Below, piece after piece: positions 1,919-64,000 of a DNA stretch of 64,000 nt. A program made the position numbers and the translations under genes. This stretch comes from Gallionellaceae bacterium (GTDB lineage: Bacteria; Pseudomonadota; Gammaproteobacteria; Burkholderiales; Thiobacillaceae): contig JAQTLN010000001.1 in the NCBI GenBank assembly GCA_028714875.1, positions 1 through 64,000 of the forward strand. Reading direction: 5' to 3'. Position 1 is the stretch's first letter; each line of letters starts with the position of its first letter. The notes beneath the pieces are model-generated. The model was not told the origin of the DNA. It did not search any database and saw only the letters and a list, made by a program, of their open reading frames with translations.

Positions 1919-2860
1919 ATGCGCATTAGCTCTTTGACCTATTTCACCAGCAGCCTGGGTGGCATGCAGAACAACCAGGCGCACATCGCCCGCTTGAGCG
2001 AGCAGATCGCCAGCGAGACCGGCATCTTGTCCCCCAAGGACGACCCGCTGGCGACCGGCAAGGTGATCGACCTGTCCAACCGCGTCGCGCTGCGCGACCA
2101 GCATCTGGCCAACCAGCAGAAGGCGGAACTGGACCTCAGTTATGAAAGTACCGTGCTCACCGGCATGCGCGGCGTGCTGGAAAAAGTCACCCAGAACATC
2201 ACGGGCATGGGGCCGAACCAGACCCAGGACCTGCGCGATCAATATGCCGCGACGATCAATGGCGCTTATCTCCAGCTCAAGGATCTGGCCAATACCCGCG
2301 ACCCGGAAGGGCGCTACATCTTCTCGGGTTTCAAGACCAGTAGCGTGCCCTATGACCATACCCAGGCTTACGGTACGGCGACGACGACCAGCCCGGCGGC
2401 GACCTATAGCGGCACTCCCTACACTTCCCTCACCAGTCCGGATGGCGTGCGTTCCATCGAAGTGGCCTCGGGCCGCAACATCCAGGTCAGCGACAACCTG
2501 GATGTCATGTTCCAGAGCAACCAGGGTAACGACGTCCTGCAAGCCCTGGATCAACTGGCGGTCGATCTCAAGGGCACCACCACCCAGGCGCAACTGGATA
2601 CCGCGCTGACCAAGGTCAACTCGGCCCTGACCGCGCTGGGGAAAATGGAAAGCCGTATCGGCGCCGCCCAGGTGGCGTTGAAAGAGGTTGGCACGGTGAC
2701 GCGCAGCCTGCGCCTCGCGGAGCAGAACTCGTTGAACGATCTGCTCCAGCTGGACAAGGCCGCGGCCATCGTTGAACTGCAATCGCGCCAGACCAGCCTG
2801 CAAGCCGCGCAACAGGCTTACGCGCAGACCAGCAAACTGTCACTGTTCAGCTACCTGTAA
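1919..2860 (+). CDS. flgL: Flagellar hook-associated protein 3 FlgL
   Basis: FlgL is the second hook-filament junction protein and sits between FlgK and flagellin. The 313-residue product begins MRISSLTYFTSSLGGMQNNQ, the flagellin-like N-terminal helix, and ends with a helical segment rich in Gln and Ala (SLQAAQQAYAQTSKLSLFSYL is the terminal helix, 21 residues at 293-313). The order flgK-flgL and the short gap indicate one operon expressed from the promoter at 218-245. Nothing unusual is seen in length or composition. Confidence 0.94.
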   Translation: MRISSLTYFTSSLGGMQNNQAHIARLSEQIASETGILSPKDDPLATGKVIDLSNRVALRDQHLANQQKAELDLSYESTVLTGMRGVLEKVTQNITGMGPNQTQDLRDQYAATINGAYLQLKDLANTRDPEGRYIFSGFKTSSVPYDHTQAYGTATTTSPAATYSGTPYTSLTSPDGVRSIEVASGRNIQVSDNLDVMFQSNQGNDVLQALDQLAVDLKGTTTQAQLDTALTKVNSALTALGKMESRIGAAQVALKEVGTVTRSLRLAEQNSLNDLLQLDKAAAIVELQSRQTSLQAAQQAYAQTSKLSLFSYL

Positions 2861-2862
2861 TA

Positions 2863-3171
2863 GTGGTCGATTCCGACGAACTCCTGCGCGCCAAGCTCAA
2901 CGCCGAGACCGGACGCATCGCCTGGGCCGAGTTGCAGCGCCACTTCGCGCGTGGTTCGGTCATCAGCGTCGCGCCCGGCATGGACCTGGTGGAAGTCGCC
3001 CTGAGCATCGCCCGTGACGACAAACCCAGCATCGAAGCCTGGCTCGCAGCCAAGCGAATCAAACGCGCCGACAGCGAAGACGCTCTCGACTGGCACGAAC
3101 GTGGCGCCCAGTTCTGGGCCGTCGTCACCGCGCCCTGGGTGCTGGTGCAGGAAATCGTGGAAGAAATGTAG
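2863..3171 (+). CDS. DUF2288 family protein
   Basis: A 102-residue acidic, soluble protein with no signal peptide or membrane segment. The sequence matches my memory of the DUF2288 family (start LLRAKLNAETGRIAWAEL, Trp-rich ends WHERGAQFWAVV and APWVLVQEI), which has no established function and is common in Gammaproteobacteria, Betaproteobacteria and cyanobacteria. GTG is the start, only two bases after the flgL stop, so it is probably translated from the flgKL message. A C/G-run repeat follows. A functional link to flagella is not implied by the family, so co-transcription may be incidental. Confidence 0.75.
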   Translation: MVDSDELLRAKLNAETGRIAWAELQRHFARGSVISVAPGMDLVEVALSIARDDKPSIEAWLAAKRIKRADSEDALDWHERGAQFWAVVTAPWVLVQEIVEEM

Positions 3172-3207
3172 CGCCAGCTTGTTTTGCTTCGTGAAGAAGA
3201 GCCGGCC

Positions 3208-3296
3208 CCCCCTTTCCCAAAGGGGGGGGTCTCCAGGGGTGGCGCCAGCGCGGCCGTCGCTAAATCCCCCCTAACCCCCCTTTGAAAAAGGGGGGG
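3208..3296. repeat. C/G-run palindromic element, full copy
   Basis: The left arm (C-run, TTTCCCAAA, G-run at 3208-3230) and the right arm (AAATCCCCC to the G-run ending at 3296) are inverted relative to each other around a GC-rich centre. Each arm also folds as its own hairpin. A further partial right end, TTGAAAAAGGGGGGG, follows at about 3339-3354, just before the fccB stop codon. Confidence 0.75.
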
Positions 3297-3357
3297 AACC
3301 ACCGCGCCAACCGCATCACCTGTTAACGGGAAAAGAGCCTTGAAAAAGGGGGGGCGG

Positions 3358-4665
3358 CTAGAACCTGTTGGTGAATCGGTAGCCCTTGGGTAACCCCAGC
3401 GTATCCGCCCAGATGTTCCTGGCCCAGCCGCGCATGTATACGAGTTCCTTCTCGCTTTCTTCGCTGGAAACGCCGCCGCCCGGCTGCACATCCATGCCCT
3501 TGTCCTCCGGGTTGTAACGGAACACGGTTGCCACGTGGAAGGCGGTGTGATCGCTGCTGGCGGAATAGCAGGTGCTGGTGAGCACCGGCGCCGGGTCGGG
3601 CTGGCGGCCGTTGAATATTTCCGACAGCGCCCAGGCGCACAGCTTGCCGCTGTTGTTGGCCAGCGCGGCGGCCTTCGACAGGTTGGACAGGATGGAGTCG
3701 CCCAGGATGTGCACGTTGGGCACCTCGGTGGACTCGAATGAGCGGTAATCCACCGGGCACCAATTGCCGCCGTCTCCTGTGCGCGCGCCGATCAGGGCGG
3801 TGAGGGCGGCGGCGCGCATCGGCGGTACCAGGTTGATCACGTCGCCCTTTACGTCGTCGAATTCGCTGGTCACTTTCATCGCCGCCACGTCGACCGCCAC
3901 AGCCACATTGCCGGGGCGATAGTCGATCAGACTGTTATCAGTGCCGTAGCCGTAGTGCTTTTTCCAGGCGGTCAGGAATAGTTCCTTCTTGGCGATGATG
4001 TCCTGGTTGCCGTCCAGCACAATGATCTTGCTACGTGGCTTGGCCTTCTTCAGATAATTGGCCACCAGACTGATGCGTTCGTAGGGCGCGGGCGGGCAAC
4101 GATAGGGCGCCATCGGAATCGCCATCGTGAACACGCCGCCATCCGGCATTGCCTCCAGTTGCCGGCGCAGCACACCGGTCTGGTCCGGGCTCGCCTTCCA
4201 GGCGTGCTTGATCACCTTGCGCGCCGCCGCGTCATAGCCCTTTATCTGGTCGAACCTCAATTCGATTCCCGCCGCCAGGATCAAACGGTCATAAGCAAAT
4301 TGCTTGCCGCCCGCGGTGGTGACGCTACGTTTGCCGGGGTCTATGGCGACCACGGAATCAGCCACGAAATGATCCACCACCGCCTTGATGCTGTCGTAGG
4401 GGAAGGTGATGTCTTCCATATCGTTCAACCCGGCGATGACCGTGTTGGACATGGGACAGGAGACGAAGCGCGGGTTCGGTTCGATCAGGGTGATTTCCAC
4501 CCGAGGTTCCCAGAGTTTCAGATAGCGCGCACAGGCCGCGCCGCCGTATCCGGCGCCGACGATGACCACCTTGGGCCTGGCCTTTCCGGCGCGCGCGCGG
4601 CTACTCGCGGTGAGGATGCCGGCGGCGGTTGCATAGCGCAGAAAGTCTCGGCGGGGGAGGGACAT
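3358..4665 (-). CDS. fccB: Sulfide dehydrogenase (flavocytochrome c) flavoprotein subunit
   Basis: FccB is the periplasmic FAD subunit that oxidises sulfide to sulfur and passes electrons to a c-type cytochrome. The 435-residue precursor starts with a Tat signal (RRDFLRYATAAG, residues 5-16). A Rossmann FAD motif GAGYGG lies at 37-42. The redox-active cysteine pair is represented by Cys70 (RFVSCPMSN) and Cys303 (NWCPVDYRSFES). ATG is preceded by TAGGAGC. No cytochrome subunit gene (fccA) adjoins it, so its heme partner must be encoded elsewhere, or it acts as a SoxF-like stand-alone subunit. It is divergent from sat. Confidence 0.92.
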   Translation of the reverse strand: MSLPRRDFLRYATAAGILTASSRARAGKARPKVVIVGAGYGGAACARYLKLWEPRVEITLIEPNPRFVSCPMSNTVIAGLNDMEDITFPYDSIKAVVDHFVADSVVAIDPGKRSVTTAGGKQFAYDRLILAAGIELRFDQIKGYDAAARKVIKHAWKASPDQTGVLRRQLEAMPDGGVFTMAIPMAPYRCPPAPYERISLVANYLKKAKPRSKIIVLDGNQDIIAKKELFLTAWKKHYGYGTDNSLIDYRPGNVAVAVDVAAMKVTSEFDDVKGDVINLVPPMRAAALTALIGARTGDGGNWCPVDYRSFESTEVPNVHILGDSILSNLSKAAALANNSGKLCAWALSEIFNGRQPDPAPVLTSTCYSASSDHTAFHVATVFRYNPEDKGMDVQPGGGVSSEESEKELVYMRGWARNIWADTLGLPKGYRFTNRF

Positions 4666-5075
4666 GGCGGTGCTCCTAGGTCAGTCCAGCAATGCCGTCG
4701 GATGTTACCCATCCTGGCGCGTGCCTGGCGTGATACATGCGTTTCCATCGCTGTGCTGGAGTCCGCGTGGAGAAAATTAATCCAGCTCCGTAGGTTGGGC
4801 GCGCTTCGCTTTGCCCAACCTACTCGGCTGATGGGTATCCGAGATAAATAAAATTGGCTGATATAGGCCTCTAAAGACCACCTTGTCGCCCTACGGAGCA
4901 ATGGGCATGCGGCCAGTAGGACAGGCCCAAGCGGGACATTTCCGATACCTTGACCCCAAAAAATTTTTATTTGCAAAGAAATAACACTGATTAGGGTGGC
5001 TCCGACCCCGGTGCTATCCTCGCCGCCCATTCGGTAGCCCAGCCTCCCCATCCTTACATCTATTTAGGAGCGTTC
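4666..5075. other. Divergent intergenic region between fccB and sat
   Basis: This 410-base gap must hold the promoters of fccB and sat. It contains one short palindromic repeat at 4790-4823. I could not identify a convincing promoter pair or riboswitch in it. An AT-rich stretch (AAAAAATTTTTATTTGC) near 4957-4973 is the only compositional break. Confidence 0.6.
4790..4823. repeat. Palindromic repeat, GTAGGTTGGGC family
   Basis: GTAGGTTGGGC and GCCCAACCTAC form the two arms around a loop containing GCGCTTCGCTTT. Copies of the same family occur at 33108-33141 (inverted) and, degenerate, at 9058-9091. Confidence 0.75.
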
Positions 5076-6953: not shown

Positions 6954-8987
6954 ATGGCTGAATTTGGAAATCCCGATGTCATCCAGGAAGAAGTCGACAT
7001 CCTGATGATCGGCGGCGGCATGGCCTGTTGTGGCGCCGCTTACGAAGTCATGCGTTGGGCCGACGCCGCGAAAGCGGAAAAAGGCGTCGACCTGAAGATC
7101 AAGCTGGTCGACAAGGCCGCCATGGACCGCTCCGGCGCCGTGGCTCAAGGTCTGTCCGCCATCAACACCTACATCGGCACCGAGCAGGACCCCGCCGACT
7201 ACACCCGTATGGTCGCCAACGACCTGATGGGCATCACCCGTGATGACCTGGCCTATGATGTCGGCCGCCACGTGGACGACTCCGTGCACCTGTTCGAAGA
7301 GTGGGGCCTCCCCATCTGGAAAACCGATGCCAACGGTGAGCGTCATGACGGCGCCGCCGCCATCGGCGAAGGCCTGCCCTCCCTGAAGGACGGCGGCAAG
7401 CCCGTGCGCTCCGGCAAGTGGCAGATCATGATCAACGGCGAATCCTACAAGTGGATCGTTGCTGAAGCCGCCAAGAAAGCCCTGGGCATGGATCGTATCG
7501 AAGAGCGTATCTTCATCGTCAAGCTCATCAACGACGCCAACGACAGCAACCGTATCGCCGGTGCCGTCGGCTTCTCCACCCGTAACCACACCCTGCATAT
7601 CTACAAGGCCAAGGCGATCCTGCTGGCCGCCGGTGGTTGCGTGAATATCTTCCGTCCCCGTTCCGTCGGTGAAGGCACCGGCCGTGCCTGGTACCCGGTC
7701 TGGAACGCTGGTTCCACCTACGCCATGGCCGCTGAAGCCGGCGCTGAGCTGACCATGATGGAAAACCGTTTCGTGCCCTGCCGCTTCAAAGACGGTTACG
7801 GCCCGGTCGGCGCCTGGTTCCTGCTGTTCAAGGCCCGCGCCACCAACGGTTATGGCGAAGACTACCTGACCAAGAACAAGGCCATGCTGGACCAGTACCC
7901 CCCGTACGGTCAGGCTGCCGTCCCCGCTTCCTGCCTGCGTAACCACGTCATGCTGAAGGAAATGAAGGAAGGCCGCGGCCCGATCTGGATGGACACCGTG
8001 ACCGCCCTCGGCAAGCTGCGTGACACCCTGTCCCCGCGCGAAGTGAAGCACCTCGAAGCCGAAGCCTGGGAAGACTTCCTGGACATGTGCGTCGGCCAGT
8101 GCGGCATCTGGGTTGGTGAGAACGTCGAGCCGGAGAAGAAGAACTCCGAACTGATGCCCACCGAGCCCTATCTGCTGGGTTCCCACTCCGGTTGCTGCGG
8201 CATCTGGGTTTCCGGCCCGACCGACGTCGGCGCCCCGACCACCGAACTGCACGCCGATGCGGACAAGATTCCCGCGCACCTGCCTTCCGGCTGGAGCTGG
8301 GGCTATCGTGGCATGACCACCGTCAAGGGTCTGTTCACCGCCGGTGACGGCGTTGGCGCCGCCGGCCACAAGTTCTCTTCCGGCTCCCACACCGAAGGTC
8401 GCCTGGCCGCCAAGGCCATGGTCAAGTACTGCATCGACAACAAGGACATGAAAGTCGAGCTGGACACCTCCGTCGAGCAGCTGGTCGAAGACATCTATCG
8501 TCCCGTGCGTACCTACCTTGAGTTCAAGGACTACAGCACCGCGATCGACGTCAACCCCAACTACATCACCCCCAAGATGCTGCAGTTCCGTCTGCAGAAG
8601 ATCATGGACGAGTACGTTGCCGGCGTGGCCACCTACTACAACACCAACGACAAGATGTTGGAAGTTGCGGAAGACAAGCTGAACATGCTGAAGGAAGACG
8701 CCATGAAGATGCGTGCGAAAGACCTGCACGAACTCCTGCGCGCCTGGGAAAACTACCACCGGATATTGACGGCGGAAGCCCACATGAAGCACATCCAGTT
8801 CCGTGAAGAAAGCCGTTACCCCGGCTTCTACTACCGCACCGACAAGAACTTCGTCGATGAGGAAAACTGGAAGTGTTTCGGTAACTCCATCTACGACAAG
8901 ACCACGCAGAAGTGGACCAACTTCAAGCGCGCTCACGTTGACCTGGTGGACAAGTCCAAGCTGTTCAAAGCAGCCGCCCCTCACTAA
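6954..8987 (+). CDS. aprA: Adenylylsulfate (APS) reductase alpha subunit
   Basis: AprA is the FAD-containing catalytic subunit of APS reductase and belongs to the fumarate reductase/succinate dehydrogenase flavoprotein family. The 677-residue protein begins with the FAD-binding strand LMIGGGMACCGAAYE (about residues 14-28) and contains GAVAQGLSAINTYIG near 62-76. A second FAD contact, FTAGDGVGAAGHKFSSGSH, lies near 462-480. It has the length expected of AprA. Codon use is strongly biased to C/G-ending codons, as for a highly expressed gene. No aprM or qmo membrane partner gene lies beside it, so the electron acceptor is not shown here. Confidence 0.97.
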   Translation: MAEFGNPDVIQEEVDILMIGGGMACCGAAYEVMRWADAAKAEKGVDLKIKLVDKAAMDRSGAVAQGLSAINTYIGTEQDPADYTRMVANDLMGITRDDLAYDVGRHVDDSVHLFEEWGLPIWKTDANGERHDGAAAIGEGLPSLKDGGKPVRSGKWQIMINGESYKWIVAEAAKKALGMDRIEERIFIVKLINDANDSNRIAGAVGFSTRNHTLHIYKAKAILLAAGGCVNIFRPRSVGEGTGRAWYPVWNAGSTYAMAAEAGAELTMMENRFVPCRFKDGYGPVGAWFLLFKARATNGYGEDYLTKNKAMLDQYPPYGQAAVPASCLRNHVMLKEMKEGRGPIWMDTVTALGKLRDTLSPREVKHLEAEAWEDFLDMCVGQCGIWVGENVEPEKKNSELMPTEPYLLGSHSGCCGIWVSGPTDVGAPTTELHADADKIPAHLPSGWSWGYRGMTTVKGLFTAGDGVGAAGHKFSSGSHTEGRLAAKAMVKYCIDNKDMKVELDTSVEQLVEDIYRPVRTYLEFKDYSTAIDVNPNYITPKMLQFRLQKIMDEYVAGVATYYNTNDKMLEVAEDKLNMLKEDAMKMRAKDLHELLRAWENYHRILTAEAHMKHIQFREESRYPGFYYRTDKNFVDEENWKCFGNSIYDKTTQKWTNFKRAHVDLVDKSKLFKAAAPH

Positions 8988-9009
8988 TCGGGTGCTGTAG
9001 CTGAAAAAG

Positions 9010-9040
9010 CCGGGCGCTCACAAGGCGCCCGGTTTTTTTT
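9010..9040 (+). terminator. Intrinsic terminator of the sat-apr operon
   Basis: CCGGGCGC (9010-9017), a 7-base loop, GCGCCCGG (9025-9032) and eight T residues form a textbook intrinsic terminator 22 bases after the aprA stop. Confidence 0.93.
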
Positions 9041-9057
9041 ATTGCTGAACGCGGTAC

Positions 9058-9091
9058 GTCGGTTGGGCACGCTTCGTTTCAGCAAACCGAC
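9058..9091. repeat. Degenerate GTAGGTTGGGC-type palindrome
   Basis: GTCGGTTGGGC at the left pairs imperfectly with GCAAACCGAC at the right. It looks like a decayed copy of the repeat at 4790-4823. Confidence 0.5.
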
Positions 9092-9122
9092 ATCAAGCGC
9101 TGTACACCCCGTTCTTCGAACC

Positions 9123-9154
9123 GTCATCCGCAAGAGCGCCCTCTTGCGAATGAC
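9123..9154. repeat. Short inverted repeat upstream of the YkgJ-type gene
   Basis: GTCATCCGCAAGAG and CTCTTGCGAATGAC form 14-base arms with one mismatched pair and a 4-base loop. It lies 54 bases before the next start codon and lacks a T-tract. Confidence 0.6.
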
Positions 9155-9207
9155 GCTTCATCCCCCATATAACCGCTTCTTTCCGCACCGTTTTTTCGAG
9201 GCCGCAC

Positions 9208-10158
9208 ATGGACGAGACCCAATTCAAGAACCTGGCACAGGACGCTCCTTTCGAGCTGAGCCCGGTCATGCCCAACATGCTCGATGGCGACAAGGTCATC
9301 CAGTTCCGTTGCCATCGCGATGTGGGTTGCTGGAACGCCTGTTGCGCCAACATCGACATCACCCTCACCCCTTACGACATCCTGCGTCTGAAGAATCGCC
9401 TGGAGTTGTCCTCCGGCGACTTCCTCAAGCAATATACCGTTCCCTATGAAATGGATCAGGACGGCATGCCCGGCGTGAAATTCCGCCCGGTCGAAGGCGG
9501 CACCGCCTGCCAGTTCATGAAACCGGAAGGTTGCGGGGTCTATGAAGACCGACCCACCGCCTGCCGCTACTATCCCGTGGCGCTGCTCTCCATGCGCCGC
9601 CAGGACGAATTCACCGACCGAGCCGTTTATGCGATGGTCGAGGAAAAGCACTGCCTCGGCCACCAGGAGCCGCGTTCGCTCACCATCGACGACTACCGCA
9701 AGGAACAGGGTGTCGACGAATATGACGAAAAGGGCCGTGGCTGGCGCCAACTGGTCCTCAAGCGCAAATCCGCCGGACCCGGCATCGGCAAGCCGCCCGC
9801 CGTCTCCAATCAATTGTTCTTCATGGCCAGCTACGACATAGACCGCTTCCGTGCCTTTGTTTCCAGCGACTCCTTCAACCGCACCTATGAAATCCCGCTG
9901 GATGTCATGGCGGTCCTGCTGGACAACGATGAAGCCCTTATGGAGTTCGGTTACAACTTCCTTAAACATGCCCTGTTCGGTGAGAAGTTCCTCGCTGAGC
10001 AGCCGGGCGCCTACGAAGCACGCATGGGGCGCCTCAAGGCCAAGACGGAAAAGCTGCGTGAGGAATACCAGGCCAACCGGGATCAACTGGAAGAAGACAA
10101 GTACAGCGAGCCCGGCCGCCCCGGTGACCTCAGTTGCGGCACCAAGGACTGCGGTTGA
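9208..10158 (+). CDS. YkgJ-type cysteine cluster protein
   Basis: A 316-residue cytoplasmic protein with two cysteine groups: Cys35, Cys41, Cys45 and Cys46 (CHRDVGCWNACC) and Cys101, Cys109 and Cys119 (ending YEDRPTACRYYP). This spacing is that of the YkgJ/Fe-S-cluster-containing oxidoreductase family, whose members are thought to bind zinc or an iron-sulfur cluster. The remainder is an extended C-terminal helical half with a charged segment (RLKAKTEKLREEYQ) near 277-290 and a last CGTKDCG. The terminator after aprA separates it from the sulfur operon, so linkage with APS reductase is only positional. The substrate is unknown. Confidence 0.75.
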   Translation: MDETQFKNLAQDAPFELSPVMPNMLDGDKVIQFRCHRDVGCWNACCANIDITLTPYDILRLKNRLELSSGDFLKQYTVPYEMDQDGMPGVKFRPVEGGTACQFMKPEGCGVYEDRPTACRYYPVALLSMRRQDEFTDRAVYAMVEEKHCLGHQEPRSLTIDDYRKEQGVDEYDEKGRGWRQLVLKRKSAGPGIGKPPAVSNQLFFMASYDIDRFRAFVSSDSFNRTYEIPLDVMAVLLDNDEALMEFGYNFLKHALFGEKFLAEQPGAYEARMGRLKAKTEKLREEYQANRDQLEEDKYSEPGRPGDLSCGTKDCG

Positions 10159-58411: not shown

Positions 58412-58571
58412 TTTTCATTCAGTCCGCGCGACAGGGGCGTGGCAGGATTCGGCGCCACCGCGATTCAACGCCGACCCAGCCGCGCGGCGGGAGCTTGTTC
58501 CCGTGGAAAAAATAAAGTTTTTCCCGCGATGGCCGATAGCGCCCCACCACCGTTTGAAGGGGCGCCCGACC

Positions 58572-59702
58572 ATGTTTTTCCGATCAGGACAAAAACTCGC
58601 GGAATTGCGGGAACACTTGCAAACCCTACAGTCCGAAAACGAGACCCTGCGAGGGGAATTGACGGTGAAACGAGAGGCGCTCAATGCCATGCGCTCCGCG
58701 CCGGCCGTCATGCGGGACCAGGGCAGCCCACTGACGGGGATGGTCCCCCACATCGGCAGTTTCAGCGATTCGCTCAAGGAATCCCAGGGCTCGCTCGCCA
58801 CGCTGGCCCAGGCCATGCGCCAGGAGACGGAACGCGTGGTCAAGGCCTGCCATACCGTGGGCGACAACCTGGGCATCATCGAGCGCATGGCCAACAGCCT
58901 GGAAAGCTTCACCGAGCGGCTCAATTCCACCTCGGAGGAGGTGGGCAAGCTGCACGACCGCACCGGTGAGATCGGCGGCATCGTCAAACTGATTCAGGGC
59001 ATCGCCGAACAGACCAATCTTCTCGCCCTCAACGCGGCCATCGAGGCGGCGCGGGCCGGCGAGTACGGGCGCGGTTTCGCGGTCGTGGCAGACGAAGTCC
59101 GCAAACTGGCCGACCGCACCCGAAGCGCCACCAACGAGATTTCCAGCCTGGTGCAGACGGTGCAGAACGAGGCAACCCAGGTACGCGACCAGGTTCAGGT
59201 GGACCCGGAAAGCACCCGCTTGTTCAAACAGGATGGGCAGCAGGCCTACCTCGGCATGAAGGGCCTGATGGATTCCTCGGATCAGATGATCGGCACCATC
59301 GCCGCCAGCGCCCTGCGCAGTTTCGTGGAAACCGCCAAGGTGGATCACCTGGTGTTCAAGATGGACATCTACAAGGTATTTCTCGGACTCTCGAACAAGC
59401 AGGATAGCGAATTCGCCGGCCATACCAACTGCCGTCTCGGCAAGTGGTACTACGAAGGTGACGGCAAGAGCTGCTTTTCCAAACTGCCCGGCTATCAGGC
59501 CATTGAGCCCCCCCATGTGGCGGTGCACCGACACGGGGTAAATGCCGTGCGGCATTTTCACGCGGGTGAAATGAATGCCGGTCTGGATGAACTGGGCAAA
59601 ATGGAAGCCGCCAGCCTGCAAGTCCTGCGCAACCTGGAAGTCATGGCGGAAAGCGGCCAGAAAGACCCCGGCATCCTGTGCGCCGAGTTGCACCTGCATT
59701 GA
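58572..59702 (+). CDS. Soluble chemoreceptor with C-terminal zinc-binding CZB domain
   Basis: The 376-residue protein has no membrane helix. It starts with a coiled-coil ([18 protein letters not shown]) and a methyl-accepting signalling domain with the conserved hairpin tip ([20 protein letters not shown] near 146-165, then [18 protein letters not shown]). The C-terminal part has the CZB pattern ([17 protein letters not shown], then [15 protein letters not shown] and [10 protein letters not shown]), where three His and one Cys bind zinc. TlpD of Helicobacter is the model; it reports on oxidants such as hypochlorite. It would send signals to CheA from the cytoplasm. Confidence 0.9.
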
Positions 59703-59742: not shown

Positions 59743-59798
59743 GTAGGGTGCGCCGTGCGCACCGATTTACTCCCGATGGTGCGCAAGGCGTACCCTAC
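59743..59798. repeat. GTAGGGTGCGCC palindromic repeat
   Basis: GTAGGGTGCGCCGTGCGCACCG region at the left and GGTGCGCAAGGCGTACCCTAC at the right form an imperfect inverted repeat. It is a further short repeat family, seen once in this window. Confidence 0.7.
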
Positions 59799-59810: not shown

Positions 59811-59960
59811 GCGCAACTCGTACAACGCCTCCAGCGCCTGTTTCGGGCTGAGTTCGTCCGGGTCGATTCCCGCCAGGCGGTCGAGCATGGGGCTGGAGGC
59901 CCGTTCCGGGGTGGGGACGATCTGGGCGAACAACATGTAGGCACGGTGCGGCGCAAAGAA
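59811..59960 (-). pseudogene. Decayed copy of the mutS 3' end
   Basis: Bases 59811-59867 are identical to 63571-63627 of mutS, and similarity continues to about 59936. The reading on the minus strand has [18 protein letters not shown] like MutS. Near 59930 the sequence jumps to match mutS about 63950, so about 270 bases are missing; the join falls where the two MutS segments YTLFATH and DLFAQII share LFA. It has no separate stop and cannot encode MutS. The 326-base gap from 59703 holds this remnant, one palindromic repeat and the promoter region of the following gene. Confidence 0.85.
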
Positions 59961-59970
59961 AATAACAACC

Positions 59971-59994
59971 TTGTTGTGCAACAGTGTTGTTGTG
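59971..59994. promoter_or_regulatory. Candidate control site upstream of the ATPase pair
   Basis: TGTTG-TG-CAACA (59972-59983) is a perfect palindrome, and TTGTTGTG occurs twice (59971-59978 and 59987-59994). It lies about 35-60 bases before the first ATPase start. No convincing promoter boxes could be fixed. Confidence 0.4.
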
Positions 59995-60028: not shown

Positions 60029-61165
60029 ATGACCTGCTTCGACCGCACCCAAGAAACCGCCAACCTCTGGAGACACTTCAACGAAGGCCGCAACCTGCTG
60101 ATGCTCGCCCCGCGCCGCATCGGCAAGACCGTCCTGCTCAACCGCCTGCGCGATGGCGCCGCAGAGCAAGGCTTTCGCGCCATCGTCCTCGACGTGGAGG
60201 GCTTTCGCGAGGAGAAGGACTTCTTCCGCCAATGCTGCGCCGCCATCCAGGAAGAACTGAGCACCGGCGCCAGTGTGATGGTCGCCCTGGGCGAACGCCT
60301 TTCCCGCGTCCTGCACGGCAAAGCCGAAGGCGGCGACTGGCGGCAATGGCTGTTGCAGACCGACTGGCGCGAGTTCGCCGACCATCTGCTGGCTCACCTG
60401 GACGATCATGCCGACGGACCGCCCTGGCTGATCCTGGTGGACGAACTGCCGGTCTTCCTTCAGGGCCTGCAATACCGCGACGGCGACCGCGCCATCGGCG
60501 ACTTCCTCTACTGGCTGCGCAACATGCGCCAGAAATACCGCCATGTGCGCTGGCTCTACACCGGCTCCATCGGCCTCGACAGCATCGCCCGGCGGCACAG
60601 CGTGGAAGGCGCACTGAACGACCTGGAACCGTTCCCGCTCAGTCCCTTCGACCCACCCACCGCGCGCGGCTTCCTCTCCGACATTGCCCGGCGGCGCGGC
60701 TGCCTCCTGGAAGAAGCGGCCGGCGAAATCATCCTGCGCCGCCTGGGGTGGCTCTCCCCCTACTACCTGGAAAAGATCGCTGAGGACGCCTGCGCTCAAG
60801 CCGGCCCAGGCGGCGTGCTCGATTCGGCGCGTGCCGACGCGGCGATGGACAACATGCTGGACCTGTCCAAGCGCACCTACTGGAGCACCTGGCGTGAACA
60901 CCTTGACCGCAACTTCCCGGAACCGGAAAGGAGCCGCCTCTATAGCGTGCTGGAAACCGTGGCACGCGACGAAACCGGCGCCGCCGGCGACACCCTGCTC
61001 AGCACGCTCAGTCGGGGCGGCGGCGAGCCAGTGGGCCAGGCCGAACTACGCAAGCTGCTCGATACCCTGTTGACCGACGGTTACCTGGAAGTCAACGACG
61101 AACACCGCTACCGCTTCCGCATGAATCTGCTGCGTGAATGGTGGCTGCGCTATGTGGTGCTCTGA
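60029..61165 (+). CDS. AAA ATPase, archaeal-ATPase-like, first gene of a two-gene module
   Basis: The 378-residue protein has a P-loop APRRIGKT at 27-34, a Walker B WLILVDE at 133-139 and a sensor-like strand RWLYTGSIGLDSIARR at 175-190, a pattern seen in the archaeal ATPase/STAND-related clade. The C-terminal third (about 230-378) has the winged-helix-like HTH end RKLLDTLLTDGYLEVNDEHRYRFR and finishes LREWWLRYVVL. There is no signal peptide. GGAGACA precedes ATG. It is followed after 9 bases by a larger ATPase gene. I cannot name a function; control, defence or mobile-element roles are possible. Confidence 0.8.
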   Translation: MTCFDRTQETANLWRHFNEGRNLLMLAPRRIGKTVLLNRLRDGAAEQGFRAIVLDVEGFREEKDFFRQCCAAIQEELSTGASVMVALGERLSRVLHGKAEGGDWRQWLLQTDWREFADHLLAHLDDHADGPPWLILVDELPVFLQGLQYRDGDRAIGDFLYWLRNMRQKYRHVRWLYTGSIGLDSIARRHSVEGALNDLEPFPLSPFDPPTARGFLSDIARRRGCLLEEAAGEIILRRLGWLSPYYLEKIAEDACAQAGPGGVLDSARADAAMDNMLDLSKRTYWSTWREHLDRNFPEPERSRLYSVLETVARDETGAAGDTLLSTLSRGGGEPVGQAELRKLLDTLLTDGYLEVNDEHRYRFRMNLLREWWLRYVVL

Positions 61166-61174
61166 GGAATAGAC

Positions 61175-63514
61175 ATGGGCAATCTGATGAACCTCGCGGT
61201 CTACAACCCCGCCATCCTCTCCGACGCTGATTTCCTCACCGGCTTCGTCGCCCGCAATGATCTGACGGAAGGCTTGCAGGGCCGCCTGCGCGAAATTACC
61301 CCGAACGGACTGGCCAGGCACCACCTCATCCTCGGCCAGCGCGGCATGGGCAAGACCAGCCTGCTGCGCCGCTTGGCGCTGGGCGTGCGTGACGACCCCA
61401 AGCTCGCGGAAGTGCTGTTGCCGCTCACCTTCCGCGAGGAGCAATACAACGTCCACAACCTGCATACCTTCTGGATGAACTGCCTGGACGCATTGGGCGA
61501 CTGGTTCGAGAAACATGATTTTCCGGACAAGGCCGAGGCCCTCGACCGCGACGTCGCCGCCCTGGCGCAAGGCGACCCGGACGGCGAAGCCGCGCTGGAA
61601 GCCTTCAAGCGCTGGAGCAAGGCCGAAGGCCGCCGCCCCCTGCTCCTGCTCGACAACATCGATCTGATCCTGGACGGCCTGGCCGAGCAGGACTGGAGCC
61701 TGCGCCGGGCCATGCAGGAAGCCGGCGGCATCGTCGTTGTCGGCGCCACCGCCGGCTACCTCGAAGCCACCGCCGACCCCCAGGCCGCGTTCTATGATTT
61801 CTTCCAGGTCAGCGTCCTGGAACGCCTGGGCCAGGACGAACTCCTCGCCTGCCTGCGCCGCCTGGCCGAAGCACGCGGCGAGGAAGGCAAACGGGTGCGC
61901 GAAGTCATCGCCCGCGACCCCGGCCGCATCCGCACCCTCTACGACCTCACCGGCGGCAACCCGCGCACCCTGGTTCTGCTCTACCTGTTGCTGGAACTGG
62001 ATAGCGACGGCGACGTGATGAGTGACCTGGAACGCCTGCTCGACCAAGTCACCGTGCTCTACAAGGCGCGGGTGGAAGACCTCGCCCCGCAGGCCCGCGT
62101 GGTGCTCGACGCCCTGGCCCTGAATTGGAACCCCGCCACCGCCGCCGACATCGCCCGATTAACCGGCCTGGAAACCGCCGCCACCTCCACCCAACTCGAC
62201 CGCCTGCAGAAGGCCGGCATCGTCGAGAAGGTGCAGATATCCACCAGCACCCGGGCCGCCTTTCAGTTGGGCGAGCGGTTCTTCAACATCTGGTATTTGA
62301 TGCGGCATGGGCCGAGGCGGCAAAGGACAAGGTTGCGCTGGCTGACCGGCTTTCTCCGCAGTTTCTATTCGCCGGAGCAGTTGCGGGAAAGGGGGAAGAC
62401 CTTGCTGATACGTGGGGAAGGCGGCGACGGTTCCGATTACGACTACCGGCTGGCGTTGGGGGAGGCCATTGACTCATCCGGTCTGCGTTTGCTGCTTTGT
62501 CAGTCCGCAAGAGAGGGCATGGAACGATTTGCCGCCGCCAATGGCAAACGCCTGGAAGATCTGTCTGACCCAAGCGATCTACCCGAGCCGAAGACGGGAA
62601 AGGACTGGTTCAACATGGCTTGGTGGCTAGATGTGGAATTGGCTCGATACAAGGAGGCTGAGGCCGCCTACCATCATGCAATTGAACTCAATTCCAAGGA
62701 CGCTGGTGCTTGGAACAACCTGGGAATTCTGCTCATGAACCAACTGGGACGCCCAGATGAAGCTGAGGTGGCATACCGACACTCCATCGAGATCGACCCA
62801 AAATTCGCATATCCCTGGAGCAACCTAGGCGTCCTATTAAAGACCTATTTGGGTCGTCCCGATGAGGCGGAGACCGCGTTCCAACGTGCTATTGAGATTG
62901 CCCCCACTTACGCTTCTCCTTGGAACGGTCTAGGTGCTTTGCTTGCCGATCATTTTGGAAGCTGTAAGGAGGCTGAGTCAGCATATAGCCAAGCTCTGAA
63001 GCTGGATTCACGTAAGGTAACCACAGAAACCAACATGGTCTTTCTGCTCCTCAGTCAACCTGCTCGCCAAGTTGAGGCCGAGACCAGGTTTCTAATGCTC
63101 CTGCCCCGCCTGCCTGCCTATGCCGCCGGCCTGCTCACCGCCTTCCGCGCCCTGATCCAGGACAACTTCGGCGCAGCCATCACGGCCCTTAAGGCCGCCT
63201 TGGAGACCGATCACCCAGCCCTGTTCACCACCCACCACGACGACGTGCTACGCGTCCTCCGCCTAGCCGCCCAACGCAGCTATGGAGACAAGCTGCTGGC
63301 CTGGCTGGACGAACAAGGACTCAGCGACCGCCATTGGCCCCTGCGCGCCGCGTTCGACGCCTACCTGCACGGCGAGGAAAAGCTGCTGGACGTGAACCCG
63401 GAAGTGCGCGGCGCGGCGAAGCGCATCTACGACTGGCTGGATGCACCCCGCCGCCACGCCGCCAAGTCGGCGGAACCGGCCAAAACTAAAAGGCGCCAAA
63501 GGGCGGCGGCGTAG
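61175..63514 (+). CDS. STAND-like ATPase with C-terminal tetratricopeptide repeats
   Basis: The 779-residue protein has Walker A GQRGMGKT at 54-61, Walker B PLLLLDNID at 155-163, a later winged-helix segment (ATAADIARLTGLETAATSTQL near 320-340, then KAGIVEKVQISTSTRAAFQL) and, from about 477 to 614, four TPR-like units such as AWNNLGILLMNQLGRPDEAE and PWSNLGVLLKTYLGRPDEAE. A helical region and a basic tail (KTKRRQRAAA) end it. Bases 62641-62700 have 31 G/C of 60, against 41 of 60 at 61621-61680, so the repeat segment differs in composition. The stop lies at the edge of a palindromic repeat. Function unknown; it fits an ATPase sensor with its upstream partner. Confidence 0.8.
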   Translation: MGNLMNLAVYNPAILSDADFLTGFVARNDLTEGLQGRLREITPNGLARHHLILGQRGMGKTSLLRRLALGVRDDPKLAEVLLPLTFREEQYNVHNLHTFWMNCLDALGDWFEKHDFPDKAEALDRDVAALAQGDPDGEAALEAFKRWSKAEGRRPLLLLDNIDLILDGLAEQDWSLRRAMQEAGGIVVVGATAGYLEATADPQAAFYDFFQVSVLERLGQDELLACLRRLAEARGEEGKRVREVIARDPGRIRTLYDLTGGNPRTLVLLYLLLELDSDGDVMSDLERLLDQVTVLYKARVEDLAPQARVVLDALALNWNPATAADIARLTGLETAATSTQLDRLQKAGIVEKVQISTSTRAAFQLGERFFNIWYLMRHGPRRQRTRLRWLTGFLRSFYSPEQLRERGKTLLIRGEGGDGSDYDYRLALGEAIDSSGLRLLLCQSAREGMERFAAANGKRLEDLSDPSDLPEPKTGKDWFNMAWWLDVELARYKEAEAAYHHAIELNSKDAGAWNNLGILLMNQLGRPDEAEVAYRHSIEIDPKFAYPWSNLGVLLKTYLGRPDEAETAFQRAIEIAPTYASPWNGLGALLADHFGSCKEAESAYSQALKLDSRKVTTETNMVFLLLSQPARQVEAETRFLMLLPRLPAYAAGLLTAFRALIQDNFGAAITALKAALETDHPALFTTHHDDVLRVLRLAAQRSYGDKLLAWLDEQGLSDRHWPLRAAFDAYLHGEEKLLDVNPEVRGAAKRIYDWLDAPRRHAAKSAEPAKTKRRQRAAA

Positions 63515-63551
63515 GTCGGGTTAGGCGCGTCTTTTTGCGCCGTAACCCGAC
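63515..63551. repeat. GTCGGGTTA palindromic repeat
   Basis: GTCGGGTTAGGCGCG and CGCCGTAACCCGAC flank a TCTTTTTG loop. It matches the family at 33154-33185 and separates the ATPase gene from mutS. Confidence 0.75.
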
Positions 63552-63558
63552 ATGGCAT

Positions 63559-64000
63559 CTACAGCAACCCGCGCAACTCGTACAACGCCTCCAGCGCCTG
63601 TTTCGGGCTGAGTTCGTCCGGGTCGATCTCGCTCAGGCGGTCGAGGGCGGGGCTGGCGGGCGGTTCAGGGGTGGGGATGATCTGGGCGAACAGATCGCCC
63701 TGGCCGGAGGGGGCGATCTGCTGGTTTTCCAGCATCACCAGCTTGCGCCGCGCGGCGTTGATGACCGGCGCCGGCACGCCGGCCAGGCGGGCGACCTGGA
63801 GGCCGTAGCTTTGCGAGGCGGGGCCGTCTTCCACGGCGTGCAGGAAGGTGAGGCCGCCGTTTTTGCCGACACTTTCCACCGCGTCCAGGTGCACGTTGGC
63901 CAGGGCGCGGAATTCCTGGTTGAGCTGGGTCAGCTCGAAATAATGGGTGGCGAACAGGGTGTAGGCGCGGGTCTTCTCGGCCATGTGGCGGGCCACCGCC
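63559..64000 (-). CDS. mutS: DNA mismatch repair protein MutS, C-terminal part
   Basis: MutS recognises mismatches and recruits MutL. Only the last 147 residues or so are in the window; the gene continues past 64000. The visible segment has [11 protein letters not shown], typical of the MutS ATPase core (switch loop with the conserved THY), [13 protein letters not shown], and the C-terminal dimer region ending [21 protein letters not shown]. It is transcribed away from the window edge towards the ATPase module. A damaged copy of its 3' end lies at 59811-59960. Confidence 0.95.

Follow-up and report, generated by a model that had tools for sequence, protein, structure and literature searches.

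A mobile pair of STAND/NLR-like ATPase genes with a variable TPR segment and a candidate self-operator, probably a bacterial defence module

The ATPase pair

The present analysis concerns two adjacent ATPase genes, designated P1 (the small ATPase) and P2 (the large ATPase), on contig JAQTLN010000001.1 of a Gallionellaceae bacterium (assembly GCA_028714875.1), whose first 64,000 nucleotides constitute the window that was analysed. P1 occupies positions 60029..61165 of the plus strand and encodes an AAA+/STAND ATPase of 378 amino acids (aa), which is of the archaeal ATPase kind and carries a C-terminal winged-helix-like region, as judged from its open reading frame (ORF), Pfam, and profile and model matches. 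Its ATG lies at 60029 and its stop codon ends at 61165, while the mechanically called ORF opens earlier, at a GTG at 59984. After an intergenic gap of 9 bases, P2 (61175..63514, plus strand) encodes a 779-aa STAND-like ATPase with a winged helix, TPR repeats and a C-terminal cap, according to its ORF, Pfam matches, alignment and model. An original prediction, made from the letters alone, had named two P-loop ATPases of these lengths and this spacing, and both ORFs were found where it had placed them. On the same strand, P2 is divided into a fixed core (about residues 1-440, 61175..62494), delimited by invariant alignment columns and an exact motif, a variable TPR segment (about residues 475-690, 62597..63244), recognized from a codon-usage break, its turnover and tandem arrays in relatives, and a C-terminal cap with a PEVR-type motif (63245..63511), which was located by landmark comparison among homologues. 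Ahead of P1 lies an operator-like array of two palindrome-containing repeats with 16-bp spacing (ATAACAACCTTGTTGT GCAACAGTGTTGTTGT; 59962..59993, plus strand, -67 to -36 from the P1 start), which had been absent from the original prediction.

Proteins of the STAND class are defined by a P-loop NOD core that contains Walker A and Walker B motifs as well as a GxP-type motif preceding a winged helix, and the invariant columns of both P1 and P2 agree with this definition of a STAND/NLR-like core. The P-loops read APRRIGKT, accompanied by hhhhDE, in P1 and GQRGMGKT, accompanied by hhhhDN, in P2. In P1, Walker A covers approximately residues 27-34, R29, R30, G32, K33, D138 and E139 are invariant, and P244 is nearly so. 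The P2 core comprises the P-loop (54-61), D160-N161, GGNPR (260-264), the winged helix (303-353) and ERFFNIWYLMR (367-377); across 74 aligned sequences G57, G59, K60, D160, G261 and R264 are invariant and P263 nearly invariant, and an invariant E88/Q90 follows strand 2. The usual Walker B glutamate is thus absent from P2 at D160-N161, and P1 retains D138-E139. A pattern scan with the P2 core, over one genome per species, gave 303 relatives, the best 80 of which were kept as loci. The motif ERFFNIWYLMR (E367-R377) is invariant in all 74 aligned cores, is found letter for letter in 80/80 loci and is retained in the P2 of plasmid pNP7-2 at approximately 30% identity; it stands directly after the winged-helix hairpin, which we take to be the site where NLRs carry their MHD motif.

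The P1 profile matched the solved archaeal ATPases 2FNA (4.3e-9) and 2QEN (4.9e-8), and the P1 model (pLDDT 89.9) gave 2QEN and 2FNA as its best Foldseek matches, followed by ORC proteins and, from rank 21, plant NLRs; its Pfam match, to AAA_22, is just above the cut-off. The likeness of P1 to the archaeal ATPases, as originally proposed, is borne out by profile and model alike. For P2, the MarR_2 winged helix (303-353) and TPRs (487-611) are above the Pfam cut-off, with AAA_16 and nSTAND_NTPase5 under it. Counted at E <= 0.001, the mostly weak library matches of the P2 cores were to AAA_16 (74/74), nSTAND_NTPase5 (66/74), NACHT (56/74), ORC-CDC6-like (45/74) and TniB (3/74). Helical repeats are present in the P2 model (pLDDT 88.3, pTM 0.71), whose top Foldseek match by E-value was terminase-bound Avs3 (8dgc, 3.4e-7) at a low TM of 0.25, followed by TPR proteins and ORC. 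The description of P2 as a STAND-like protein with winged helix and TPRs stood, except that the winged helix is no separate addition and belongs to the conserved core.

No match of P1 was obtained in NCBIfam or PHROGs, and the matches of P2 there covered the TPR and winged-helix stretches, plus one weak ATPase match. Neither protein matched a housekeeping family in the libraries scanned, an outcome that would have spoken against the original prediction, and, as that prediction had it, no known system was recognized in PADLOC, NCBIfam or PHROGs. The P1 and P2 cores align with each other at an hhalign probability of 98% (E 9e-14), and by this homology P1 and P2 are a pair of related P-loop ATPases. 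Both genes are under purifying selection: against the nearest relative, P1 has a dN/dS (the ratio of nonsynonymous to synonymous divergence) of 0.15 and the P2 core one of 0.14.

The two genes also travel together. With a P1 match threshold of more than 70 bits, some fragments included and gene starts chosen by script, P1 was found in 73/80 P2 loci (best 80 of 303). The distance from P1 stop to P2 start was -14 to +32 bases in 67/73, with an ATGA-type overlap (-4) in 30; the six other spacings were 55, 119, 155, 345, 375 and 1381 bases, of which 155, 345 and 375 involve broken or fragmentary frames and 1381 contains two transposase-like ORFs. When 369 genomes belonging to the class were surveyed, the P2 core occurred in 11, a strong P1 match (at least 124 bits) occurred in the same 11, and the two were adjacent on the same strand in 11/11. 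The P1 profile at 1e-8 matched 30/369 of these genomes, the other matches being at most 55 bits, save one 193-bit P1 piece on another contig of G407. Rare adjacency elsewhere, which had been named as the finding that would undermine a module, did not occur (P1 in 73/80 loci, adjacent in 11/11 class genomes). As far as the sequences tell, P1 and P2 are inherited as one unit of overlapping or closely spaced genes.

The repeat segment of P2

The P2 core is nearly fixed at approximately 440 residues, whereas the repeat segment ranged from 0 to 876 aa (median 314) in the 47/81 proteins with both landmarks. The units are mostly 35 aa (105 bp) long; a subgroup of four loci (L030, L031, L032, L038) has 43-aa units instead. 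Near-identical tandem copies were detected by Tandem Repeats Finder (TRF) in L054 (8.4 copies at 90%), L025 (6.2 at 90%) and L088 (5.7 at 93%), although the assembly of tandem repeats in metagenome-assembled genomes (MAGs) is a known weakness of such data. Close pairs of loci display the contrast most clearly. L017 and L018 share 97.9% of the core, 98.7% of P1 and 94.7% of the cap, against 70% of repeats that are 409 and 584 aa long; L043 and L056 share 90% of the core and 48% of the repeats; and L048 and L050, with 87% core identity, have 335 and 0 aa of repeats, respectively. Between the window and L010, the core is 87%, P1 85%, the repeats 62% and the cap 72% identical. The cap, which is recognizable even in repeat-free homologues, is conserved less than the core: it is approximately 80% identical in L011/L012/L013, and several pairs diverge in the cap too.

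Synonymous divergence (dS) between the window and L010 was about 2.2 (saturated) in the repeats vs 0.54 in the core. That the repeats of different species simply change their amino acids faster was ruled out, for dS is raised as well, and the raised dS points to an exchange of repeat blocks. P2 would thus combine a fixed core with an exchanged repeat segment, the ligand face of which was apparently diversified anew in some copies, on the following evidence.

Variability within the unit, compared over 31 arrays, was highest at positions 2, 35, 9, 5, 14, 13 and 12; in TPRs, positions 2, 5, 9, 12 and 13 lie on the concave side that faces the ligand. For the TPRs of fungal NLRs, the concave side is stated in a passage of PMC4986451. 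Unit pairs at least 85% identical were compared at these 5 of 35 positions, with 20,000 random position sets as reference. Over all 10 arrays, the five positions hold 39% of the amino-acid-changing differences, a share that 14/20,000 random sets reached. The seven arrays with at least three pairs gave 41% (3/20,000), with proportions of nonsynonymous (pN) and synonymous (pS) differences of 0.224 and 0.167; in four arrays picked after the first look, the share was 57% (0/20,000), with pN 0.280 and pS 0.052 at the ligand-facing positions and pN 0.038 and pS 0.136 at the other unit positions. With a wider set of eight positions, pN exceeded pS in the single arrays L025, L054, L088 and L052 but not in five others. 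By these counts, amino-acid change clusters on the ligand side when the arrays are taken together, and in some of them it looks like diversifying selection. Hypermutation by a diversity-generating retroelement (DGR) was rejected, since variation is not confined to adenines: in the ligand-side codons of the four arrays, 14/37 columns at codon positions 1 and 2 with A as the major base vary, compared with 17/27 for other bases. The suggestion that the TPR segment may serve as a sensor is strengthened by its fast turnover and ligand-side variation, and from these we infer a sensor role.

The segment also stands apart in codon usage. In the P2 of the window, the GC content at third codon positions (GC3) is 0.58 in the repeats (about residues 443-666, 62501-63172), whereas the core has 0.87 and the cap 0.81, and the amino-acid-matched GC3 of the repeat segment gave z = -10.6. 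Matched z values of the repeat segment relative to core and P1 were below -3 in 27/41 proteins, the window included, and above +3 in none; because this constant direction is systematic across proteins, plain foreign DNA is a doubtful reading of the low GC3. Of the nine TPR loci that served as control in the own genome, one is P2 itself and two are frames on the wrong strand, which are uninformative. Five clean TPR frames lack an internal dip, two of them being low throughout (0.69 and 0.48), and in L189, whose TPR lies at the protein end, GC3 drops there from 0.85 to 0.64.

The upstream array, distribution and insertion site

When the 200 bases that span and precede the P1 start were aligned for the window and eight relatives, the sole aligned upstream block was ACAACAAnnnTGTTGyrCAACAnnnTTGTTGT, which is kept in all 9 sequences, whereas the flanks are not. 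The array sequence is lineage-specific (TATATACATTTTTGTA in L062, ACGTACGTTAATATTG in L213), yet the period of 16 persists, and upstream autocorrelation peaks at lag 16 (0.334) and lag 32 (0.293) against 0.264 +/- 0.004 in shuffles. A repeat was counted where 13 or more of 18 bases matched at lag 16 within 150 bases upstream. The controls were the upstreams of neighbouring genes called by a simple script, and 67 P1 upstreams including that of the window were used after five with uncertain P1 starts and two with fewer than 150 bases had been dropped. Repeats at lag 16 were detected in 48/67 P1 upstreams vs 13/351 control upstreams, and at a threshold of 14 in 32 vs 3. A dyad score of at least 12 for the best lag-16 stretch was reached by 66% of P1 upstreams vs 15% of controls (150 controls sampled). 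Such repeats occurred in 0/66 cases inside P1, in 0/71 downstream of P2 and in 0.42 of 66 after shuffling, and no other lag from 10 to 30 rose above 2 at threshold 14. Of nine further survey loci without any DNA in common with the first 80, five passed (5/9), and a P1-like gene on a Segatella plasmid, partnered by a 298-aa protein, passed with a score of 15.

With <= 3 mismatches allowed, the 4.08-Mb genome contains no second site like the array of the window, which ends 35 bases ahead of the P1 start codon; no consensus promoter was recognized at it. Loci without P1 are split in their lag-16 scores (L020 13; L019, L067 and L071 10; L023 and L089 8), and these scores favour neither P1 nor P2 as the protein to which the array belongs. 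The plain reading of these patterns is a candidate self-operator that co-evolves with its binder. On two Moraxella osloensis plasmids (L220 and L222), AACTATAAAATTATAGTT-type palindromes with a different spacing were noticed about 120 bases before P1.

The distribution of the pair is sporadic. Within the genus it was found in 2/23 genomes, and the nearest 101 genomes contained it only in the own genome and in G021 of the same genus, besides one weak match in G087. A tree of 62 paired P2 cores carries ten phylum labels, taken from record titles, in which the window copy groups with L010 (G021), then with Competibacteraceae and then with a group including Desulfocapsa; the Pseudomonadota label undergoes at least 8 changes on starred branches, to which MAG binning errors may add. 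Plasmid records contained P1 in 5 cases. Adjacent pairs reside on the Moraxella osloensis plasmids pNP7-2 and pSKB0120-2, the former about 3 kb downstream of Qat antiphage genes (QueC-type, qatD), from which it is separated by a kinase, a transposase and a small gene; a short P1 lies beside an IS5 transposase gene on p4 of the same species. Among 502 neighbour ORFs of the 80 loci, no gene cluster recurs in more than 8 loci. Both the co-occurrence and the variable neighbours that the original prediction had asked for were observed. The largest clusters resemble, by eye, proteins of membrane signalling (8 loci) and of the ABC type (7 loci); a CobQ-like cluster in 4 loci, three of them Dechloromonas, may be due to common descent. 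Same-strand genes close downstream of the pair were mostly dissimilar. The sequences thus present P1-P2 as a unit that occurs sporadically, in changing surroundings and on plasmids. As side observations, an Agrobacterium plasmid (pAtCFBP7129a, L221, 4269-7505) encodes a lone ATP-binding protein resembling part of P2, with ThiF, two adenylate/guanylate cyclase-type genes and a Tn3 transposase as neighbours, and in L010 the pair is followed by a further 458-aa ATPase (8557-9933) that is weakly P2-like and has no PADLOC match at 1e-20.

At the locus itself, the pair is bounded by two copies of the mutS 3' end. The intact mutS on the right flank (63559..63999, minus strand), identified by a MutS_V Pfam match, continues past the window end as an 868-aa frame in the genome. 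On the left, a mutS 3'-end remnant (59811..59954, minus strand) forms an internally shortened direct duplication, recognized by nucleotide and protein matches: positions 59811-59932 repeat 63571-63692, a stretch close to the true mutS 3' end, in direct orientation and with 91% identity over 123 bp, and the protein match reaches on to 59954. The remnant that the original prediction had noted is accordingly real. Further left lies a chemoreceptor gene with MCP signal and CZB domains (58503..59702, plus strand), which adjoins mutS in a cassette-free congener. A mutS match was present in 22/23 genomes of the genus, and the mutS flank was compared in 19 congeners. A close MCP homologue stands beside mutS in 2/19; 5 others have a PFK gene at most about 4 kb from mutS, and the remaining congeners differ or end early. 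One of the two (G022, L125) has a mutS-MCP gap of about 0.1 kb without insert, an empty site, and the other (G011, L121) has a different insert of about 2 kb (about 2700-4850) between the two genes. From the empty site and the different insert it follows that this spot is variable across the genus and that the cassette, as had been supposed, is an insertion. Site-specific integration at the mutS 3' end was considered, since the flanking duplication is att-like, but no integrase was seen between the flanks; capture by recombination suffices for the flanking duplication.

By eye, the insert of L121 encodes a PEP-CTERM protein resembling metalloproteases; it also holds a second ORF. The cassette is flanked by two short palindromic repeats that differ from each other and are REP-like (repetitive extragenic palindromic); that at 59743-59798 is partially matched at six other places in the genome, and that at 63512-63556 overlaps the P2 stop codon and has two relatives in the window.

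Interpretation and comparison with known systems

The pair, its mobility, the sensor turnover and the array are well supported, and from them we infer self-regulation, defence and a killing step. P1-P2 is understood here as a mobile two-gene STAND/NLR-like module, for which defence against phages or other invading elements seems the likeliest function and on balance a probable one; an NLR-like role in control or defence, as suggested by the original prediction, may be ascribed to it in this sense. In the resting cell, the ADP-bound pair would sit on the 16-bp array through the winged helix of P2, and possibly that of P1, and hold down its own expression. Binding of a foreign protein or assembly to the concave face of the TPR superhelix would free the P2 core to swap ADP for ATP. 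Activated P2 would then recruit P1, which has the complete Walker B (DE, against DN in P2), into a mixed oligomer after the manner of a sensor/helper NLR pair. The oligomer would let go of the operator, more of the pair would be made, and the infected cell would be halted. The effector step is the least certain part of this mechanism; because neither a recognizable effector domain nor a widely recurrent third gene was found, the action would have to come from the ATPase assembly itself, for instance on DNA, or from a host partner.

Several observations weigh against a defence module of this kind. No recognizable effector domain was found in P1 or P2 by domain scans, alignment or model, and a third conserved effector gene was ruled out, as no neighbour is widely recurrent. 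The P2 core had no match in 50,697 phage records, nor in an IMG/VR pattern scan; with the P2 core alone sought in either collection, phage cargo was rejected. Seven of the 80 loci lack a clear P1 (L019, L020, L023, L066, L067, L071 and L089), although L066 is at a contig edge and L067 has a 19-bit fragment. Below the lag-16 threshold are 19/67 P1 upstreams, 4/9 of the further survey loci and the two intact Moraxella plasmid pairs (score 10), which have another repeat spacing. At the ligand-facing positions of all 10 arrays, pN (0.209) is smaller than pS (0.274). Most neighbours of the pair look ordinary, and an enrichment of defence genes beside it is not proven. A PADLOC scan of 373/396 neighbour ORFs (at least 150 aa, within 5 kb, at 1e-15) matched 126, 47 and 134 families in three batches vs 23 in a control of 128 ORFs, 126 of them from 15 arbitrary stretches and two from L125; no enrichment is claimed, because one protein can match dozens of models and distinct proteins were not counted. 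The control also holds a very strong DpdJ match and helicase-type matches. Among the matches listed, neighbour models include restriction, Bil, Dpd, Zorya-type helicase, PsyrT and PD-T4-6. Named defence neighbours are BilD and BilC in L019, BilD in L020, type I S and M in L089 and type IIG in L022, and four other picked neighbours had no match or a weak repeat-type match. The P2 homologues that adjoin the BilC/BilD-type genes (L019, 3102-5041; L020, 2547-4600) are P1-less.

Other functions were weighed on the same evidence. A pair of STAND transcription regulators of the MalT/AfsR sort, whose TPRs would sense a metabolite or partner and whose winged helix would bind the 16-bp repeats without any immunity, is rather unlikely. 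The MarR-like winged helix in P2 and the repeat array before P1 would suit it, but the array occurs at one site in its own genome at <= 3 mismatches, which leaves no regulon visible at that stringency, and fast sensor turnover, sporadic presence and plasmid copies do not suit the regulation of metabolism. MalT binds DNA through a LuxR domain that stands apart at its C terminus, and no LuxR or SARP domain is among the P2 Pfam matches listed (25 of 30). That STAND proteins with TPR sensors are known among transcription activators, as a portion of PMC6468293 records, speaks on the regulator's side. Unlikely as well is a toxin-antitoxin-like addiction pair, a self-repressing complex on the array that would arrest growth if disturbed and so maintain its element. 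Two tightly linked genes with frequent ATGA overlap, repeats before the first gene and mobility agree with it; its products, however, are both large homologous ATPases instead of an unstable antidote and a toxin, P2 homologues lack a clear P1 in 7/80 loci, and P2 has a variable ligand-facing sensor, a feature that we know of in no toxin-antitoxin system.

The recently duplicated TPR units and their varied concave positions, parallel to the fungal NLRs of PMC4986451 as far as its relevant passages go, would also be expected of an allorecognition system that distinguishes self from non-self in a population by sensing proteins of kin or competitors and not of phages, and part of PMC10907252 likens bacterial STAND sensors to fungal heterokaryon incompatibility. 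No delivery or exchange gene was seen by eye among the seven recurrent neighbour clusters, however, and this explanation is regarded as quite improbable. Scarcely probable is that the pair serves some transposable or integrative element as an accessory regulator, a reading prompted by the weak TniB and ORC/Cdc6-like matches of P2 cores, by ORC among the Foldseek matches, and by transposase genes near single loci (L088) and on plasmids. These TniB and ORC matches are common to the whole ATPase class, and the same seven clusters contain no transposase or integrase by eye.

Returning to the defence reading, the parts are ordinary and the whole is unusual. A more specific version is put forward tentatively: across ten phyla, P1-P2 may be an effector-free bacterial sensor/helper NLR pair that sits on, and acts via, a travelling 16-bp array and carries a repeat-exchanged TPR sensor selected on its ligand face. 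If so, the pair would amount to an innate receptor whose means of diversification are built in and which brings its own operator. To our knowledge, the paired-NLR layout occurs otherwise only in plants and animals, and immunity by P1-P2 would add it to bacteria in a two-gene unit. No such paired system was found in PADLOC-DB 2.0.0 (2023), NCBIfam, PHROGs or the open-licence literature searched; the many new systems listed in PMC13092281 (DefensePredictor) could include a member. Near-identical cores and partners with different TPR sensors (L017/L018, L011/L012/L013 and L048/L050) offer natural experiments for sensor specificity, and the 16-bp array provides a handle on the DNA-binding partner and on receptor quiescence.

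Among known systems, Avs/AVAST (Avs3, Avs5) resembles P2, in which a STAND-like ATPase is likewise followed by a TPR-type C-terminal segment, the putative sensor. In contrast with the tripartite Avs architecture, as defined in a section of PMC12931631, P2 opens directly with the ATPase core, and neither P1 nor P2 has an N-terminal effector domain. Two homologous ATPases take the place of one Avs protein, and some copies have a sensor with recently duplicated, ligand-side-varied TPRs. No Avs model of PADLOC-DB 2.0.0 was among the P1 or P2 matches at E <= 1, which were weak matches to other families, and the scan of 66 P1 proteins gave no curated Avs match. The fold and core motifs of P1 are those of the archaeal ATPases SSO1545 (2FNA) and PABY2304 (2QEN) and of Pfam ATPase_2, which matched 25/66 P1 proteins, but the identity to the two archaeal proteins is approximately 16-17% in the Foldseek alignment. 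The match of P1 to MADS mad8 is weak (3.2e-5; 16/66 P1 proteins match at E <= 0.001), and the genes beside the pair (MCP, PFK, mutS and others, by eye) are not MADS genes.

A toxin-antitoxin module is a two-gene operon with operator repeats and opposing toxic and antidote activities; gene order and repeats of this sort are present at the locus, and such activities of P1 and P2 would be hypothetical. MalT, PH0952 and AfsR also join a STAND core with a TPR sensor, and DNA binding is likely for the pair too; P1-P2 nevertheless has two ATPases, with no DNA-binding domain seen beyond the core winged helix and no regulon seen. Bacterial STAND proteins with hypervariable sensors diversified by DGRs, as described in a portion of PMC10907252, are comparable in principle, whereas the sensors here are TPR arrays whose variable sites are not adenine-restricted. 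Plant sensor/helper NLR pairs suggest an analogy in two homologous NOD ATPases, one of which has the sensor, and plant NLR structures are among the P1 Foldseek matches; the bacterial pair nevertheless shares no sensor type or executioner domain with them, and a ring assembly of P1 and P2 would be hypothetical. The fungal NLRs of high internal conservation (HiC; TPR/ANK/WD) belong to another NOD family, have another domain order and possess N-terminal effectors of the kind not found here, and yet, according to passages of PMC4986451, they too combine a NOD core with near-identical tandem TPRs, changes in repeat number and variation on the concave side. This parallel in repeat diversification raises the question of whether bacterial receptor repertoires arise in the same manner.

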